From: Haloarcula halophila
GTDB taxonomy: Archaea; Halobacteriota; Halobacteria; Halobacteriales; Haloarculaceae
Assembly (NCBI RefSeq): GCF_029278565.1
Contig: NZ_CP119559.1
Span: forward strand, 2,232,001-2,296,000
DNA: 64,000 bases
Direction of reading: 5' to 3'
Made by a program: the position numbers and the translations under genes. Of the stretch, positions 5,711 to 63,822 are shown piece after piece. Within the stretch, counting starts at the first letter, position 1, and the number at the start of each line of letters is the position of its first letter. A model generated the notes under the pieces. The model did no database searches and was not told where the DNA came from. It saw nothing but the letters and a program-made list of their open reading frames with translations.

Positions 5711-7468
5711 TCAGGCGAACAGCCGCGGCCCGAAGATCATCAACAGCAGCCCACCGATCATCGAGACGGTGATCGTGATCGTGACCGCCGTCGTGAGCTG
5801 TCGCCGGTCCGGAACCGGGAGTCGAGAGACGAACGACTCCGTGCTCGTCCGAAGGATGTGCCCGCCGTCCAGCGGGAACGTCGGGACGCAGTTGAACTGG
5901 CCAATGACGACGTTGATCCACCCCGTCCAGAACAGGGCGTTCGCCAGCAGGAACACGGGCGCGGTCCCCAGTGCGCTCAGTGGCCCCTCGACGGTGTAGA
6001 AGTTCGTCGCGATCCCGGTGAAGCCGGCGAAGTTGTAGCCGAAGCCGCCGGCGACGCCGATAAAGGGCAGGATGATCGCCCCGAAGATCCGCTGGGTGAA
6101 CGAGAACTCCCGTGCCGCGTCGGGGTTCTCGGGCGAGCCACCGAGGAACTCCAGGAACGTCGCGGCGGGGTACTCGTCGATGCCGAAGTCGTTCGTGGTC
6201 ACGCCGCTGATACCCGCAAGCGGCGTGACGCCGAGGCGGGGACTGTCGCTCCCGCCCAGCGTGACCTGATAGGTCTGTGGCTGGCCGTCGACGTAGCCGA
6301 CGACTTCGACCTCCTGGCCGGGCGAAGTCTCATCCAGGGCGGCCCCGAGCGTGCTCGCGTCGTGTGTCCGCTGGCCGTCGATCGAGGTGACGATGACGGC
6401 CTCACGGCCCGGTGCGCTGGCGTTGTCCAGTGGGCCGTCGGGTTGGACCAACACGTAGGCGCCGATCGGCATCGTCACCGACCGGCCCTCGGCGGTCGAC
6501 AGCGTCGCGACCGTGGTGTTGCGGACCTCCCGCTCGAAGGCCACGCTCGTCGAGACGTTCGTCCCGTTGACCGCGGTGATCGTCTCCCCGGTCGAGACCG
6601 GTGCCGACTGGACGGCGCTGTCGACGACGACTGCCCGATCGACGGTCACGGACTCGGCACCTTCGAGCGAGACGGCGACGGAACTGGCTTCGGTCTCGGC
6701 CAAGACCGCGTCGAGTTCGTCGCCGTTCGCGATCGGCTGGCCCTCGACGGCAGTGATCACGTCACCGGACTCGATCCCCGCCTGGGCGGCCGGGGTCTCC
6801 TCCAAGGTGCCGCCGACCGGGACGCCGTCGACGACGGCGATCGCCCCCGAGATCGGTCCGAACAACAGGAGCAAGGCGACCAGTGCGAGCGCGAAGTTGT
6901 TGGTGACGCCGGCCGCGAACATCCGTGTCTGGGCACCCCTGTCGGAGTGGATCAGTTCGTCCTCGTCGGGCTGGACGAACGCGCCGATCGGGATGAGCGT
7001 AAACAGCGCCAGCCCCATCGACTCGATGTCTATGTTCTCGACCCGACAGAACAGGCCGTGGCCGCCCTCGTGGACGACCAGGCCCAACAGGAGTCCGAAG
7101 ACGATCTCCGGGGCGACAGAGAGCGGGAGGAAGTCGTTGACGCCGGGGATCGCCAGCGCGTTCCGTGGTTCGTTGAGCGCGGAGGGCTGTGGGTTCACGA
7201 TCGCCTGGTAGGCCCCGAACACGACCATCGCGAACGAGCCGACCATCACGACCAGCGCCATCCCGACACCGAGGTTCCCCCAGGCCCGCCAGAACCGCGT
7301 GGGGCGAGCCAGCCAGTCCAGGACGGCTTTCCCTTTCTGGGTGTGGATCGTGGTGATCGGCCCGCTGAACCGGATGTACTCGGGGATCACCCCGCGGGCT
7401 CGCAACGCCATCGCCAGCAGGGTGTAGGCGACGACGCCGGCGAGCACCCACGTCAGCGTGCGTACCAT
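5711..7468 (-). CDS. Site-2 protease family membrane metalloprotease with PDZ domains
   Basis: A 585-residue polytopic membrane protein of peptidase family M50. The zinc-binding motif is [10 protein letters not shown], and the distal aspartate motif is [10 protein letters not shown] near the C-terminus, so both catalytic elements are present. Between them are one or two PDZ-like modules ([20 protein letters not shown] and a second degenerate copy), which usually gate substrate access. Likely role: regulated cleavage of transmembrane proteins; the substrate is unknown. The start at 7468 ([18 protein letters not shown]) places the first helix at the N-terminus. The frame stays open upstream through the structured repeat at 7523-7656. 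Confidence 0.9.
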
Positions 7469-7522
7469 GTGTCCCAGACGTAGGTCCACCCACGCAAGAG
7501 GGTTACCCTTCGGCACCCACTT

Positions 7523-7656
7523 TTTACTTCGTCGGGTTTCCTCGCGGCGCTTTGCGCCGCTGTGGCAACCCTCCTCGCAAAAACGTGGGGAAAAACAGCC
7601 GGACGCTCGGCGATGCCTCGCGTCCGGGGAAACCGCTCGCTTCACTCGCGGTATGC
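7523..7656. repeat. Structured dispersed intergenic element, copy 1
   Basis: A 134-base stretch shares several exact blocks with 31938-32066. These are TTTACTTCG (7523-7531), a 32-base identical core (7577-7608), a 17-base block (7620-7636) and GCGGTATGC (7648-7656). The blocks form or bracket three hairpins: an outer GGGTT..AACCC stem enclosing GCGGCGC-TTT-GCGCCGC, then CCGGACGC..GCGTCCGG, then ACCGC..GCGGT. Variable bases lie mainly inside the hairpins. It sits between lysS and the M50 protease gene. I do not recognise a named family. Confidence 0.8.
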
Positions 7657-7754
7657 TTGGACCCTGCCTTTCCCCAGGTCACGGCACGGAGGCCGCTCCC
7701 GGCCGACCGCGCTGCGACCGCTCCCCAGGCCGCACCGCCAGCGGCTACAGCCGC

Positions 7755-9395
7755 CTACGCCTCGCGGCGCAACCGCTTGACGACGAACTCCTGGTCGAGC
7801 TTGGCGATGAACGTTCCCAGTTGCGGGCCTTCGGTGTCGTCGAACAGCAGGCGGTAGCCGGCGGCGAAGAAGTCACCGACGGGCACGTCGTGGCGTTTCG
7901 CCGTCTCGTAGATCTCGCCCTGGATGGTCTCGCCGTCGTGGCCCTCGGCGACGAAGTCGGCAAGTTCGTCCAGTGCGGCCTCGGTGGCCGCGTCGAAGTC
8001 GTGGTCGGGCAGTTCGGCGCGCTTGAGTTCGTAGTCGAAGGCGTTGCCCGTCCGTCGTGCCCAGTTGCGGGCTCGCTCGACCCGGGCGAGTGCGTCTTCG
8101 ACGGCCCACTCGGGGGCGTCGTCGGGGATGTGTCCCTCCCGTCGGGCGATCTCCTCGCGCAGGTCGGAGTCGTCGGTCATCCCCAGCACTGCGGCGAAGG
8201 TGTAGGGAATCCGGACCCGATCGGGGTCGGGGTCGGGGACGACCATCGGGTACGCGCGGTCGGCGACCGCCTGCTCGTCCTCCTCTCTGGGCTCTCCCTC
8301 GTCGAAGTACAGCCCTTCGAACCGGTCGAACTCGTCGACGAGCTGGTCGACGTGCTCGACGGAGAAGTCACGCTGCTTGCGCGGGGTCTTCACGAAGAAG
8401 TACTTGAACACCTCGGGTTCGAGGATCTCCAGGACTTCGTCGACCGTGATGACGTTGCCCGACGAGGAGGAGAGCGGTTCGCCCTCCAGCGTGAACCACT
8501 CGTAGACCATCGGGACCGGCGGCTGGATGTCCAGGACGTTCTCGGCGATGTCTTCGCCCGACGGCCAGGACCCTTCGGCGTGGTCCTTGCCGAACGGCTC
8601 GAAGTCGACACCGAGTATCTCCCACTGGGCCGGCCACTCGAACCGCCATGGGAGCTTTCCCTCCCTGAGGGTCGCGGTTCCCTCGTGGCCACAGCCCTCG
8701 ATGGTCTGGTCCCCGGCCTCGACGTCTTCACAGACGTAGCTGACCTCGCCGGCGTCCAGATCGACTTCGGTGACGCCCTCGGTGAGCTTCCCACACTCGG
8801 AACACTGCGGGAGGAAGGGGACATAGTCGTCGTCGACCTTGTTCTGGTACTCCGCGAGTACCTCGCGGGCGCGGTCTGCGCGTTCGAGCACGCGACGCGT
8901 CACCGCCTCGAACTCGCCGTCGGCGTACAGTTCGGTGTTCGAGACGAACTCGACGTCGACGTCGACGAGTTCGGCGCTCTTCTTCAGGAGGTTCGTGAAG
9001 TGTGCGCCGTAGGAGTCACAGCAGCCGAAGGGGTCCGGGATGTCCGTGTAGGGCTTCCCGAGGTTCCGGCCGAGCGCACCGGCGTCGACCTCGCCCAGGC
9101 CGACGACGTTCCACTCCAGGTCGGCCAACTGTCGGGGGACTTTCCGTAGCCGGTCCTTGTCGTCTGCGGTGAACACCTGCCGGACCTCGTGGCCACGGTC
9201 CCGGAGCGCCTCCGCGACGTAGTACCCCCGCATGATCTCGTTGAAGTGTCCGATGTGGGGCACGCCCGAGGGCGAGACGCCGCCCTTGATGACGATCGGG
9301 TCCGACGGGTCCCGCGCTTCGATCGCGTCCGCGACCGAATCGGCCCAGAATGCCTTTTTTCCGCCGCTACCGACTGCGTATGGGTCTTCGGCCAT
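7755..9395 (-). CDS. lysS: Lysyl-tRNA synthetase, class I
   Basis: A 546-residue archaeal class I LysRS (LysK type), which charges tRNA-Lys with a fold unrelated to the bacterial class II enzyme. The HIGH motif is at residues 47-50 within GVPHIGHFNE. The KMSKS equivalent is the serine-rich loop LSSSSGN at about residue 307, as is usual in this class. Cysteine pairs (CSECGK and YVCEDV..GCGHEG) form the zinc-binding insertion. It is directly upstream of, and one base from, nothing downstream except the structured repeat; pyrH precedes it on the same strand with a one-base gap, suggesting co-transcription. Confidence 0.96.
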   Translation of the reverse strand: MAEDPYAVGSGGKKAFWADSVADAIEARDPSDPIVIKGGVSPSGVPHIGHFNEIMRGYYVAEALRDRGHEVRQVFTADDKDRLRKVPRQLADLEWNVVGLGEVDAGALGRNLGKPYTDIPDPFGCCDSYGAHFTNLLKKSAELVDVDVEFVSNTELYADGEFEAVTRRVLERADRAREVLAEYQNKVDDDYVPFLPQCSECGKLTEGVTEVDLDAGEVSYVCEDVEAGDQTIEGCGHEGTATLREGKLPWRFEWPAQWEILGVDFEPFGKDHAEGSWPSGEDIAENVLDIQPPVPMVYEWFTLEGEPLSSSSGNVITVDEVLEILEPEVFKYFFVKTPRKQRDFSVEHVDQLVDEFDRFEGLYFDEGEPREEDEQAVADRAYPMVVPDPDPDRVRIPYTFAAVLGMTDDSDLREEIARREGHIPDDAPEWAVEDALARVERARNWARRTGNAFDYELKRAELPDHDFDAATEAALDELADFVAEGHDGETIQGEIYETAKRHDVPVGDFFAAGYRLLFDDTEGPQLGTFIAKLDQEFVVKRLRREA

Positions 9396-30710: not shown

Positions 30711-31931
30711 ATGTCGCGCAGTCCTTCGCTTCCGGAACGACCACGGTTGGACCTCGACCCCGATATGACTCCCGACGAGCGGTTGGCAGCGCTCAGGGAG
30801 CACTTCGTCGATATCGTCCGTGTCAACGAACAGCTCACCGAACAACTCGAAAGCGCTCGGGGGCGACAGCAGGACCTGACGAGCCAGGTCGACCAGCTCG
30901 AACGGGAAAACGAGACGCTCAAGACCTCCTCACTGTACATCGCGACCGCCGAAGAGATGCTCGACGACGGCGTCGTCGTCAAGCAACACGGCAACAACCA
31001 GGAGGTACTGACGGAGGTCTCCCCCTCGATCCGTGAGGAGATGGAGGCCGGCGACCGCGTCGCCATCAACGACTCCTTCTCGGTCAAGCAGATCCTCGAT
31101 CCGGAGACCGACTCCCGCGCGCAAGCGATGGAGGTCGACGGCTCGCCCGACGTTTCCTACGACGACATCGGTGGCCTCGAAGAGCAGATCCGCGAGGTCC
31201 GGGAGGCCGTCGAGGAACCGCTGATCAACGCCGAACAGTTCCGCGAGATCGGCATCGAACCGCCGAGCGGCGTCCTGCTGCACGGCCCGCCCGGGACCGG
31301 GAAGACGATGCTCGCGAAAGCAGTGGCCAACGAGACCGACGCGACGTTCATCAAGATGGCCGGCTCCGAACTCGTCCGGAAGTTCATCGGCGAGGGCGCA
31401 CGCCTGGTACGGGACCTGTTCGAACTCGCCAGCGAGCGCCAGCCAGCGATCATCTTCATCGACGAGATCGACGCCATCGCCGCCAAACGGACGGAGTCGA
31501 AGACCTCCGGCGACGCGGAGGTCCAGCGGACGATGATGCAGTTGCTCTCGGAAATGGACGGCTTCGACGACCGCGGCGAGATCCGTATCATCGCCGCCAC
31601 CAACCGCTTCGACATGCTCGACCGGGCGATCCTCCGGCCCGGCCGCTTCGACCGCCTCATCGAAGTCCCCAACCCGAACCACGAGGGCCGCGAACGCATC
31701 TTAGAGATCCACACCCAGGAGATGAGCCTGGCCGACAGCGTCGATCTGGGCGCGTTCGCCAAGGAGACAGACGGTCTCTCTGGGGCGGAACTCGCTTCCC
31801 TGGCCACCGAGGCCGGGATGTTCGCCATCCGCGACGGCCGGACGACCGTCGAACAGCGCGACTTCCACGAGGCCTTAGAGAAGATCTCACAGGACGAAGA
31901 GACCGGGAGCGGCCCCGTCGCGTTCGCCTAA
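30711..31931 (+). CDS. pan: Proteasome-activating nucleotidase PAN
   Basis: A 406-residue AAA+ ATPase that unfolds substrates and opens the 20S proteasome gate. Residues about 35-85 form the N-terminal coiled coil, followed by the OB domain. The Walker A motif is GPPGTGKT and Walker B IIFIDEIDAIA, with RPGRFDRLIEVP as arginine-finger/SRH region. The C-terminus is GPVAFA, so the gate-opening hydrophobic-Tyr-X tail has a phenylalanine in the tyrosine position. The start at 30711 is set by the TATA box. The structured repeat (copy 2) begins seven bases after the stop. Confidence 0.96.
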   Translation: MSRSPSLPERPRLDLDPDMTPDERLAALREHFVDIVRVNEQLTEQLESARGRQQDLTSQVDQLERENETLKTSSLYIATAEEMLDDGVVVKQHGNNQEVLTEVSPSIREEMEAGDRVAINDSFSVKQILDPETDSRAQAMEVDGSPDVSYDDIGGLEEQIREVREAVEEPLINAEQFREIGIEPPSGVLLHGPPGTGKTMLAKAVANETDATFIKMAGSELVRKFIGEGARLVRDLFELASERQPAIIFIDEIDAIAAKRTESKTSGDAEVQRTMMQLLSEMDGFDDRGEIRIIAATNRFDMLDRAILRPGRFDRLIEVPNPNHEGRERILEIHTQEMSLADSVDLGAFAKETDGLSGAELASLATEAGMFAIRDGRTTVEQRDFHEALEKISQDEETGSGPVAFA

Positions 31932-31937
31932 CCACTC

Positions 31938-32066
31938 TTTACTTCGAGGGGTGTCCTCGCTCGCGTTGCTCGCTGCGGGCACCCCCCGTTGCAAAAACGT
32001 GGGGAAAAACAGCCGGACGCTCACTGCGTTCGCGTCCGGGGAAACCGCACCTTCGGCGCGGTATGC
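31938..32066. repeat. Structured dispersed intergenic element, copy 2
   Basis: A 129-base stretch sharing TTTACTTCG (31938-31946), the 32-base core (31991-32022), the 17-base block (32032-32048) and GCGGTATGC (32058-32066) with the copy at 7523-7656, in the same order and near-identical spacing. The outer stem here is GGGGTG..CACCCC where copy 1 has GGGTT..AACCC, so pairing is kept although the bases differ. The loops also differ. It lies directly downstream of pan, in the sense orientation relative to it. Confidence 0.8.
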
Positions 32067-32307
32067 CCCGTACAGCCCCGCTCTTCCATGGGTCCTCACG
32101 GTTCCACCGCGAGGCTCGGGGGACTTCCGGTCTCCCAGCAGGCGGCACAGTGGCTGCTTCCGGCTGACCGTACGCTGATTCCAGAAGCGATGGATACCGC
32201 CGCCACTCCCGGCCGCCCCATCGAATTCTCCCGGCACACGGCGAGACTTTCTCCCGTTCCGGTCCGTCCCCGCGCAATTTAAGCCACGCCGTCCGGTATC
32301 GCGCGGC
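32067..32307. other. Intergenic region after the structured element
   Basis: About 240 bases with no supported ORF. A TATA-like AATTTAAGC at about 32276-32284 precedes the ATG at 32308 by the distance expected of a leaderless transcript. The remainder shows no feature I can name. Confidence 0.45.
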
Positions 32308-33525
32308 ATGGACGAGACCGGACAGACGCGGCGGGCGTTCCTCGCGGGCGTGGGAACGGCCGTCGCGGGGTCGCTCGCGGGCTGTCAGGGGAGCTTCGAC
32401 CCGCTGGCCTCGACCGCACTCGACGAGCACGCCTCGACGCAGTTCCGGCAGGGCCTGTTGAACCAGGGATACCGCGACGTTGCCCTCCCGAGTGCCGTCG
32501 AGAAGGCGTGGGAACTGCCGGCCAACCGCGGCGACCACACCGCAGCGAAGGGGAGCCCGGTGTTCGACCCGGCGGGCAACGTCGTCCTCGCGGACGACAC
32601 CGGCCGGATTCGCTCGGTGACGCCCGACGGCGAGGTCCGGTGGGCGACGACGTTCACGCAGGCCGGCCGCGGGAGCCACGGGACGCCGGCCATCGCCAAC
32701 GGAACGGCCTACATCGGTGCCTACGACGGCGCGGTGTCGGCCATCGATCTCGCGACCGGTCGCCGGCAGTGGCGCACGAGCCTCGGCGACGCCATCGGCG
32801 CGAGTCCGACCTACTACAACGGGACGCTCTACGTCGCGGTCGAACACGCGGCTCCCAGCGGGAGCGTCGCCGCGGTCGACGCCGCCACCGGCGACGTTCA
32901 CTGGCGGGACTCGCGGCCGACCCACCACCCCCACTCGACGGTCACCATCGACCGCGAGCGGGGGCGCCTGCTCTTCGGGTCGAACGACGGCCACTGCTAC
33001 GCCTGGACGTTCCCGGGGCTCGAACGGGCCTGGAGCTACGACACCGGCGCGGAGATCAAAGCGCCCGTCGCCGTCGCCGACGGCGTGGCCGTCGTCCCCT
33101 CCTGGTCCGAGACGGTGACGGGCCTGGACGTCGAGGACGGGAGCGAGGTCTGGACGTTCGAGACCGACCAGGACGTGATGTGTGCGCCGGCGATCCGGGA
33201 CAGCACTGTCTTCGTCGGGAGCCACGACCACCACCTCTACGCGATCGACCTCCAGAGCGGCCAACAGGAGTGGGCACTCGACGCCGGCGGCTGGCTCATC
33301 GGCAGTGCGGTCGCCACGAGGGACCACGTCCTCGTCGGGTCCTACGACACGACCCTCTACGCCGTCGAGCGGGCGACCGGCGACGTGGCCTGGACGGTCG
33401 GCAACCGCGGCCACGTGACGAGCGCGCCGCTGGTGACCGATTCGGCGGTCTACTACGCCGAGCGGGCCGTCGACGGCGAGGCCGACCGGCCGGGGATGTG
33501 TTACAAACTGACAGCGATGGGCTGA
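32308..33525 (+). CDS. PQQ-like beta-propeller Tat lipoprotein
   Basis: A 405-residue exported protein. A twin-arginine signal with lipobox (TRRAFLAGVGTAVAGSLAGC) ends at Cys27. The rest consists of repeated PQQ/BamB-type blades, for example GTAYIGAYDGAVSAIDLATG, GTLYVAVEH, STVFVGSHDHHLYAIDLQSG and VLVGSYDTTLYAVERATG, which form an eight-bladed or similar propeller. It probably scaffolds protein contacts outside the membrane. No PQQ-dehydrogenase catalytic residues can be singled out. Pyruvoyl-dependent arginine decarboxylase follows 39 bases downstream. Confidence 0.88.
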   Translation: MDETGQTRRAFLAGVGTAVAGSLAGCQGSFDPLASTALDEHASTQFRQGLLNQGYRDVALPSAVEKAWELPANRGDHTAAKGSPVFDPAGNVVLADDTGRIRSVTPDGEVRWATTFTQAGRGSHGTPAIANGTAYIGAYDGAVSAIDLATGRRQWRTSLGDAIGASPTYYNGTLYVAVEHAAPSGSVAAVDAATGDVHWRDSRPTHHPHSTVTIDRERGRLLFGSNDGHCYAWTFPGLERAWSYDTGAEIKAPVAVADGVAVVPSWSETVTGLDVEDGSEVWTFETDQDVMCAPAIRDSTVFVGSHDHHLYAIDLQSGQQEWALDAGGWLIGSAVATRDHVLVGSYDTTLYAVERATGDVAWTVGNRGHVTSAPLVTDSAVYYAERAVDGEADRPGMCYKLTAMG

Positions 33526-58002: not shown

Positions 58003-59997
58003 TCAGTCCCCGCGCACCTTCGTCGCGATATCGCTGACGACGTCGGGGTTGCGCAGCGTACTGGTGTCGCCCAGTTCCTCCCCGTTCGCGATGTCTTCGA
58101 GCAACCGCCGCATGATCTTCCCGGACCGAGTCTTCGGCAGCTCAGGCGTGAAGATGACCTGCTCGGGCCGGGCGATCGGGCCGATCGCGTCCTCGACCGC
58201 CTCGATGATCCGCTCCCGGAGCTCCTCGTCCTCGTCGGCACCGTCCTCGGTGATGACGTAGGCGTAGACGGCCTCGCCTTTGATCTCGTGGTTCCCGCCG
58301 ACGACGGCGGCCTCGGCGACCCCCTCGACGCCGACGATGGCGCTCTCGATCTCCATGGTCCCGAGGCGATGCCCCGAGACGTTCAACACGTCGTCGACGC
58401 GACCCAGGACGGTGATGTAGCCGTCCTGGTCGATCTTGGCCCCGTCTTCGGGGAAGTACACCCAGTCTTCGGGGTCGTCGCTGTCGATATCGGAGTACTC
58501 GCGCCAGTACTCGTCGATGAACCGCTCGTCGTTCTTGTAGAGGGTCCGGAGCATCCCGGGCCAGGGCTTGTTCACCACGAGGTAGCCGGCCTTGCCGGCC
58601 TCGACCGGGCTGCCGCTGACGTCGACGATGTCGGCGCTGAGGCCGGGCAGAGGCGGGCCGGCGGAGCCGGGTTTCATGTCCCCGACGCCGGGCAACGTCG
58701 TCAGCATCATCCCGCCGGTTTCGGTCTGCCACCAGGTGTCGACCACCGGGCAGGACTCGTCGCCGATGTGCTTGTAGTACCATTTCCAGGCCCGGGGGTT
58801 GATCGGCTCGCCGACGGTGCCCAGCAGGCGCAGGCTGGAGAGGTCGTGGCTGTCGGGGTACTCCTCGCCCCACTTCATGAACGCCCGGATCGCCGTCGGT
58901 GCCGTGTACAGTTGGGTCGCCTCGTAGTCCTCGATGATCTGCCAGAGGCGGTCCTTGTCCGGGTAGTCCGGCGTCCCCTCGTACATCATCGTCGTCGTCC
59001 CCAGCGCCAGCGGGCCGTAGATAATGTAGGAGTGGCCCGTGATCCAGCCGATATCGGCCGAGCAGAAGTACGTGTCGTCGGGCTTGATGTCCAGGACGGC
59101 CTGGCTGGTCCAGGCGGCATACGAGAGATACCCACCCGTCGTGTGTTTGACGCCTTTGGGTTCGCCGGTGGTCCCGGAGGTGTACATCAGGAACAGCATG
59201 TCCTCGGCGTCCCGGGAGACCGGCTCGACGCTCTCGCCTTCGTGGGCAGCGGAGAGTTCGTCGAAGGCGACCTGGTTGTCGGCGTAGTCGTGGTCGAAGC
59301 CGTCCCCGTCCAGCAGCCGTTCGGCGACGGCGACCGTCTGGACCTCGTGGTCGACGCCCTCTAGTCCCTCGTTTGCCTTCTCCAGGTGGTCGAGCGGGTC
59401 ACCGCGCCGATAGTAGCCGTCACAGGTGACCAGATACTCGGAGTCGGCGGCGTTCATCCGCGTGGCCAGCGCGTCCGCCGAGAAGCCGGCGAAGACCACC
59501 GAGTGGGGCGCCCCGATGCGGGCACAGGCCAGCATCGCGATGGGGAGCTGGGGGATCATCGGCATATACATCGTGACGACGTCGTCTTCGCCGACTCCCT
59601 GCTCGCGCAGTGCCGCCGCGAACTCGTTGACCTCGCGGTGGAGTTCTTCGTAGGTGTAGGTGACGTTGTCCTCCTCGACGGGTTCGCCGACCCACTCGAT
59701 CGCGGCTTCGTCGCCGCGCTCGTCGAGATGCCGGTCGACACAGTTCGCCGAGGCGTTCAGTGACCCACCTGTGAACCACTCGTAGAAGGGGGGGTTCGAG
59801 TCGTCCAGTACCTGGTCGTAGGAGTCCTCCCAGTCGAGTAAGTCGGCGGCCTGTTCCCAGCAGGCGGGCCAGTTCTCCTCGAACTCGTCGTAGATACCCT
59901 CGTCGGAAATATTGGCCTGCTCGACGAACGATTCCGGCGGTTCGAAGACCGCCTGTTCCTCGAGCCGGGCCTCCAGTTGCACATCTTCTTCTGACAT
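58003..59997 (-). CDS. acs: Acetyl-CoA synthetase (AMP-forming), copy 1
   Basis: A 664-residue enzyme that converts acetate, ATP and CoA to acetyl-CoA. Motifs are the P-loop MYTSGTTGEPKGV, the acyl-pocket DTWWQTETGGMM with its tryptophans (acetate-sized pocket), and PKTRSGKIMRR with the catalytic and acetylatable lysine. The N-terminal ACAS_N domain is present. It starts at 59997 right behind a TATA box. Actp/DUF4212 genes follow downstream, so import and activation are linked. Confidence 0.95.
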   Translation of the reverse strand: MSEEDVQLEARLEEQAVFEPPESFVEQANISDEGIYDEFEENWPACWEQAADLLDWEDSYDQVLDDSNPPFYEWFTGGSLNASANCVDRHLDERGDEAAIEWVGEPVEEDNVTYTYEELHREVNEFAAALREQGVGEDDVVTMYMPMIPQLPIAMLACARIGAPHSVVFAGFSADALATRMNAADSEYLVTCDGYYRRGDPLDHLEKANEGLEGVDHEVQTVAVAERLLDGDGFDHDYADNQVAFDELSAAHEGESVEPVSRDAEDMLFLMYTSGTTGEPKGVKHTTGGYLSYAAWTSQAVLDIKPDDTYFCSADIGWITGHSYIIYGPLALGTTTMMYEGTPDYPDKDRLWQIIEDYEATQLYTAPTAIRAFMKWGEEYPDSHDLSSLRLLGTVGEPINPRAWKWYYKHIGDESCPVVDTWWQTETGGMMLTTLPGVGDMKPGSAGPPLPGLSADIVDVSGSPVEAGKAGYLVVNKPWPGMLRTLYKNDERFIDEYWREYSDIDSDDPEDWVYFPEDGAKIDQDGYITVLGRVDDVLNVSGHRLGTMEIESAIVGVEGVAEAAVVGGNHEIKGEAVYAYVITEDGADEDEELRERIIEAVEDAIGPIARPEQVIFTPELPKTRSGKIMRRLLEDIANGEELGDTSTLRNPDVVSDIATKVRGD

Positions 59998-61878: not shown

Positions 61879-63822
<1,944 letters not shown>

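Follow-up and report, generated by a model that had tools for sequence, protein, structure and literature searches.

Genomes of the class Halobacteria harbour a real, apparently undescribed family of structured dispersed repeats of 120-145 bp (hereafter, the element), two copies of which lie in the window, i.e., the whole stretch of 64,000 nucleotides of Haloarcula halophila DNA analysed here. The family itself, its structure, its conserved tracts, its placement relative to genes and its restriction to one clade are shown by the data presented below. The function of the element is inferred from its anatomy and placement, without RNA data: it is likely a transcription terminator or insulator acting in both directions, copies of which have been scattered over the boundaries of transcription units across the class.

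The two window copies (copies 1 and 2) share an identical 32-mer, GCAAAAACGTGGGGAAAAACAGCCGGACGCTC, at 7577-7608 and 31991-32022, an identical 17-mer (7620-7636 in copy 1, 32032-32048 in copy 2) and two identical 9-mers (7648-7656 and 32058-32066; 7523-7531 and 31938-31946). These four blocks had been listed in an earlier note made from the sequence alone, and they were confirmed base for base, exactly at these coordinates. A 14-base core, GCAAAAACGTGGGG, has exact matches only at the positions of the two copies, with a chance expectation of ~0.15 even if 2 mismatches are allowed. The hairpins claimed in the same note are present in both copies, and both strands of both copies fold more stably than dinucleotide shuffles (z -3.0 to -5.6). 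The boundary drawn there held only in part: the true start is slightly earlier (CCAC at 7517 and 31932), and at its right end the element can extend further via an optional module (~7662-7704 in copy 1). The parts of the two copies are as follows.

7517..7528, + strand: copy 1, box A (CCACTTTTTACT), the fixed left end with the T5 tract on the + strand
7534..7571, + strand: copy 1, hairpin 1, long form (fold, alignment)
7577..7595, + strand: copy 1, box B (GCAAAAACGTGGGGAAAAA), pairs with box A; its - strand has two U5 tracts 7 nt apart
7599..7627, + strand: copy 1, hairpin 2 (fold, covariation)
7632..7656, + strand: copy 1, hairpin 3 and TATGC (fold, covariation)
7662..7704, + strand: copy 1, optional right module, box C (CCTGCC..TTCCCCAGGTC) and fourth hairpin (alignment)
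31932..31943, + strand: copy 2, box A (CCACTCTTTACT), T tract broken by C; abuts the pan2 stop codon
31947..31988, + strand: copy 2, hairpin 1, long form (fold, alignment)
31991..32009, + strand: copy 2, box B (sequence match)
32013..32039, + strand: copy 2, hairpin 2 (fold)
32044..32066, + strand: copy 2, hairpin 3 and TATGC (fold, sequence match)
32073..32087, + strand: copy 2, degenerate box C (alignment)

In general, the element starts on the + strand with box A (CCAC-TTTTT-ACT), followed by hairpin 1 (short or long form), box B, hairpin 2 (CCGGACGC..GCGTCCGG), GGAAA or TGAA, hairpin 3 (CCG..CGG) and TATGCT. The optional right module is found in a quarter of the copies and consists of box C (CTGCCCTTCCCC), usually together with another hairpin; box C is present in 25 of 99 copies and once in the control stretch. 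Pairing of boxes A and B (CCAC-TTTTT with AAAAA-c-GTGG) produces the outer helix of hairpin 1, which is retained as CTAAA/TTTAG at locus L013 and as GTA/TAC at L038. A pairing of box B with the right-hand box C (GGGGAA with TTCCCC) was rejected, as it was no better than with permuted partners.

In a comparison of 117 aligned copies (113 distinct), 92.4% of the cells pair, double (compensatory) changes occur in 25 of the 29 pairs, and the covariation score is 0.348 versus 0.02-0.04 if the partners are slid by 1-3 columns. Note that the alignment was fitted to the covariance model, which somewhat favours structure, but the gap to the controls is still very large. The stem sequences vary freely. 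G-U and A-C combinations are about equally frequent (53 and 46 cells), and the pairing thus shows no strand preference, being maintained either to the same extent on the two strands or in the DNA itself. The strand-specific architecture proposed in the earlier note therefore held only partly: copies do have a defined orientation with respect to genes, but nothing indicates that the function resides in one particular RNA strand.

The near-invariant parts of the element are the T5 tract at its left end (93/99 copies, versus 0.2 in shuffled copies) and the two A5 tracts (at least two A5 runs in 88/99 copies, versus 0 in shuffled copies). The latter are, on the minus strand, two U5 tracts 7 nt apart, where box B reads UUUUUCCCCACGUUUUU; the + strand has one U-tract and the minus strand two. 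Runs of T5 or A5 are rare in the window (17 in 64 kb), and 5 of these are inside the two elements. In box A of copy 2, T5 is replaced by TCTTT.

The genome of H. halophila contains 15 matches to the element detectable by blastn and 28 matches (~24 of them solid) to a covariance model built from 11 copies, the E-values of which are rough. All 28 model matches are on the main contig (C1), and none was found on the remaining contigs (~1.0 Mb). Nearly every member of the genus has at least 17-55 copies per genome (lower bounds), and across the class Halobacteria the model detected the element in 166 of 242 sampled genomes and in 57 of 73 genera (E 1e-6). In a draw from the whole phylum, it was present in 12/19 genomes of the same order and in 0/101 genomes outside that order, the latter doubling as a negative control for the model. 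The exact box B 19-mer is carried by, e.g., Haloarcula, Halomicroarcula, Halorientalis, Halosimplex, Halapricum, Natronomonas, Salinarchaeum, Haloplanus, Halorussus and Halorarius. Exact 19-mer matches in bacteria (Pectobacterium, Chitinophaga, Selenomonas, others) were set aside without a closer look as likely due to chance. Plasmid and phage records had no match to the element. One IMG/VR contig (94.7 kb) contains the exact box B 19-mer (L264:642-660), which may belong to a whole element or be a chance match.

The element did not reach the gathering score of any family in Rfam 15, in which only the neighbouring RNase P RNA, SRP RNA and tRNA were matched, and no published description was found in the open-access literature searched, although it may have been described elsewhere. 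The earlier note's statement that the element could not be matched to a named family thus stands for these sources, and its suggestion of a family is supported by many copies with conserved pairing in other haloarchaea that are not part of a known insertion sequence.

The element is placed at the ends of genes. With gene ends called by a purpose-written codon-usage gene caller, 54 of 97 copies have their left end at -5 to +10 nt relative to a codirectional stop codon (counted from its last base), versus 11.3 expected for uniform placement and orientation within the same gaps; the typical distance is 0-4 nt past the stop codon. Several of the remaining copies follow RNA genes (tRNA 3' ends at 1-5 nt). 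By reading, the element was found within ~2-15 nt after the 3' end of the SRP RNA, always in the same orientation, in 8 of 30 family members inspected, and no element was there in the other 22. In other copies, among them copy 1, 38-48 nt separate box A from a minus-strand gene start, and further ones lie ~40 nt upstream of RNase P RNA. About half of the genes to the right are codirectional, so that a convergent gene is not always there. Many of the upstream genes are core genes; in H. halophila, they include those for EF-2, thermosome, IF-6, topoisomerase I, an Hsp20 protein and Thi4. The neighbours of the window copies are the following.

5711..7468, - strand: M50 peptidase gene (PF02163); its start (gene caller) is 48 nt left of copy 1
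7755..9395, - strand: lysine--tRNA ligase gene (TIGR00467, PF01921); its transcript would reach copy 1 from the right
30747..31931, + strand: proteasome-activating nucleotidase Pan2 gene (NF047747); its stop codon abuts copy 2
32308..33525, + strand: PQQ-type beta-propeller protein gene (PF13360), right neighbour of copy 2

The view that the two copies occupy unrelated contexts, also put forward earlier, thus failed: both are at transcription-unit boundaries, like most of the family. Only 2 of the 59 gene ends in the window bear the element, which is therefore not required for termination. In H. halophila, the element follows the SRP RNA gene (G000:C1:940706-941377, L231) at a distance of 13 nt, and a second, shorter element is found there in the opposite orientation within 140 nt. 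Apart from the element, exact repeats of at least 25 bases are present in the window at 58820-58870 and 62663-62713, within two long, neighbouring minus-strand genes (58003-59997 and 61879-63822), which might be recent paralogs or might have undergone gene conversion.

In the proposed mechanism, a transcript coming from the left would end at the T5 tract of box A, few nucleotides past the stop codon or RNA 3' end, and a transcript coming from the right would traverse hairpins 3 and 2 and end at the double U5 tract of the minus strand. The U-tracts would be read by aCPSF1, the gene for which is present in the H. halophila genome; both the transcript ends and the dependence on aCPSF1 are inferred without RNA data. 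As a result of the pairing of boxes A and B, each U-tract would also be the 5' arm of a hairpin formed only in read-through RNA or extruded DNA. Intergenic termination sites of Haloferax have a T stretch, with hairpins near some of them (PMC7237163), and aCPSF1 of Methanococcus binds terminator U-tracts, best if two tracts of ≥4 are present, two-tract terminators being the strongest in vivo (PMC8716108). From anatomy and placement, termination is predicted to be stronger from the right than from the left. At the copies near minus-strand gene starts or RNase P RNA, the minus-strand tracts would stop transcription from the right side before the next promoter. Several observations speak against the terminator reading: the order of T-tract, stem and A-tract in hairpin 1 is the reverse of that in a bacterial two-way terminator and, like the role of the hairpins, has no explanation yet; T5 is not intact in box A of copy 2 (TCTTT); only 2/59 gene ends in the window have the element; and about half of the right neighbours are codirectional. 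If the reading is correct, the family offers candidates for strong archaeal terminators that are defined by sequence and occur throughout the class next to core genes, namely those for EF-2, thermosome, IF-6, Pan2, SRP RNA and tRNAs. With such a set, two-way and aCPSF1-dependent termination could be tested directly in haloarchaea.

The element is polymorphic across orthologous sites. At the pan2 site it is present in H. halophila (L164) and at L166, L167, L169, L170, L171 and L172 and absent at L165, L168, L173 and L174; in the gap between the genes for lysine--tRNA ligase and M50 peptidase it is present in H. halophila (L144) and at L145 and L151 and absent at L155 and L156. The mean similarity of copies within one genome (0.69) is slightly above that of all pairs (0.63), and some pairs at a single orthologous site reach 0.97. 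Furthermore, direct duplications of the adjacent gene end (25-245 bp, 83-100% identical) flank ~13 of 131 copies, tandem copies being excluded from the count, and no flanking duplications were seen in the control stretch. Duplication-flanked loci are L034, L038, L029, L032 and L042 in H. halophila and L049, L085, L101, L132, L075 and L076 in other genomes. The left duplicate ends 0-6 nt before box A, and this constant junction favours a real element end. For L038 (127 bp duplication), the joined flanks match genome G383 over 889/900 nt, i.e., an uninterrupted site. This site and the end of mfnA (L034) have differing duplication lengths (by eye) in other members of the genus. In genome G017, a 53 bp gene end plus element is repeated three times in units of 186 bp (L229:1946-2436), and in G384 at least two tandem units of gene end plus element are present at another site (upstream of the L240 match). 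An origin of the G017 triple array from an RNA gene was rejected, as no RNA gene is present there. The same contig has a second site with the spacing of this array, close to its other end. In G006, just upstream of the L260 match, the mfnA gene end is duplicated without the element, possibly as a relic of a lost copy.

Flanking duplications with lengths that differ between species at the same site imply that the element spreads; it spreads and turns over and is at least partly mobile, the mechanism being unidentified. Mismatches between the duplicates fall on codon positions 1/2/3 in 10/5/37 cases, and this excess at third positions (37/52) disfavours a plain target-site duplication followed by neutral decay. 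Recombination with a foreign gene end or gene conversion fits the mismatch pattern better, but leaves the constant box A junction unexplained, and both recombination and insertion with a long target duplication remain possible. An IS200/605 parent in the H. halophila genome was rejected, as its two Y1 transposase loci have no element. A bolder reading, which we consider possible but clearly less likely than not, is that of a class-wide, non-coding archaeal mobile terminator with one fixed end. Keeping to a single orientation, it would have entered the same gene ends repeatedly, and an unknown type of integration (e.g., priming at widely staggered nicks) would have produced the target duplications of 25-245 bp; the copies would then have been kept as terminators, and the duplicated gene ends homogenised by gene conversion.

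The element could instead be primarily a selfish non-autonomous mobile element (MITE-like or retroposon-like) with its left end fixed at box A, which makes long variable target duplications near gene ends, its terminator signals being incidental or only harm-reducing. The duplications abutting box A in ~13/131 copies and in none of the control, the uninterrupted site in G383, the variation in duplication length between species at a given gene end and the tandem arrays speak for this possibility. However, most copies have no duplication, all copies of H. halophila are on the main contig with none on ~1.0 Mb of others, plasmid and phage records lack a match, the third-position mismatches (37/52) are unlike the neutral decay of a target duplication, and the narrow range of distances behind stop codons and RNA 3' ends suggests that a function is being selected for. 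We therefore regard this explanation as unlikely.

The strong covarying hairpins adjoining gene 3' ends would also be compatible with an RNA element, which could act on stability as a structure in the 3'-UTR or be transcribed on its own as a small RNA. Nevertheless, this appears very improbable: the pairing has no RNA-strand preference, the T5 tract of box A precedes the hairpins, so that a transcript from the left would usually end before them, the stem sequences change freely, and the element also follows tRNA and SRP RNA genes. Even less probable, in our view, is a DNA-level palindrome, i.e., a cruciform or protein-binding site for chromosome organisation with a role like that of bacterial REP/BIME. 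The palindromes are indeed kept without strand preference, and the copies are dispersed and confined to the main contig in H. halophila, but such a palindrome would account neither for the conserved T5/A5 tracts nor for the narrowly defined distance from stop codons and RNA 3' ends.

Among known haloarchaeal repeats, the MITEs, PATEs and small mobile repeats of Haloquadratum (PMC3119063) resemble the element in being short (~110 bp), non-coding and dispersed and in having inverted repeats. The small mobile repeats insert into other mobile elements without duplicating the target (PMC3119063), whereas the element is class-wide and located at gene ends, with duplications of 25-245 bp in some copies (~13/131), and thus does not meet the criteria for small mobile repeats. 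Neither is it a classical MITE, which has terminal inverted repeats matching an insertion sequence and a short fixed target duplication, as the duplications here are long and variable; a parent was sought only among the Y1 transposases of H. halophila. The long gene-end duplications point to a spread unlike that of the mobile elements compared here. The intergenic repeats of halovirus HF2 are likewise haloarchaeal and bear transcription signals, but they are AT-rich, only 29-58 bp long and were shown to be promoters (PMC8707807). Bacterial REP/BIME are palindromes outside genes that recur within a genome, often close to the 3' ends of genes; they are associated with a RAYT transposase and have a conserved tetranucleotide at the hairpin foot. 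The element is likewise a repeated extragenic palindrome near gene 3' ends, but it has three hairpins, T5/A5 tracts and a fixed distance to stop codons, and no copy was found at the two Y1 transposase loci of H. halophila, the only loci checked for a REP/BIME-type transposase link.

Like bacterial bidirectional intrinsic terminators between convergent genes, a single palindromic element would serve both directions. The order in the bacterial terminators is A-tract, stem, T-tract. In the element it is T5, stem, A5, and the criterion for this type is not met; only hairpin 2 followed by the minus-strand U5 resembles it. The criterion for archaeal U-tract terminators, a T/U tract of ≥4 at the 3' end of the transcription unit, is met. 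The element resembles archaeal U-tract/aCPSF1-dependent terminators (PMC8716108, PMC7515710; PMC7237163 for Haloferax) in having U-tracts of 4-5 directly after genes, two close tracts on the minus strand and no need for an upstream hairpin from the left. Unlike these ordinary terminators, which are short local signals, it is a conserved structured repeat of 120-145 bp with tracts on both strands, in which the U-tract is the 5' arm of a hairpin.
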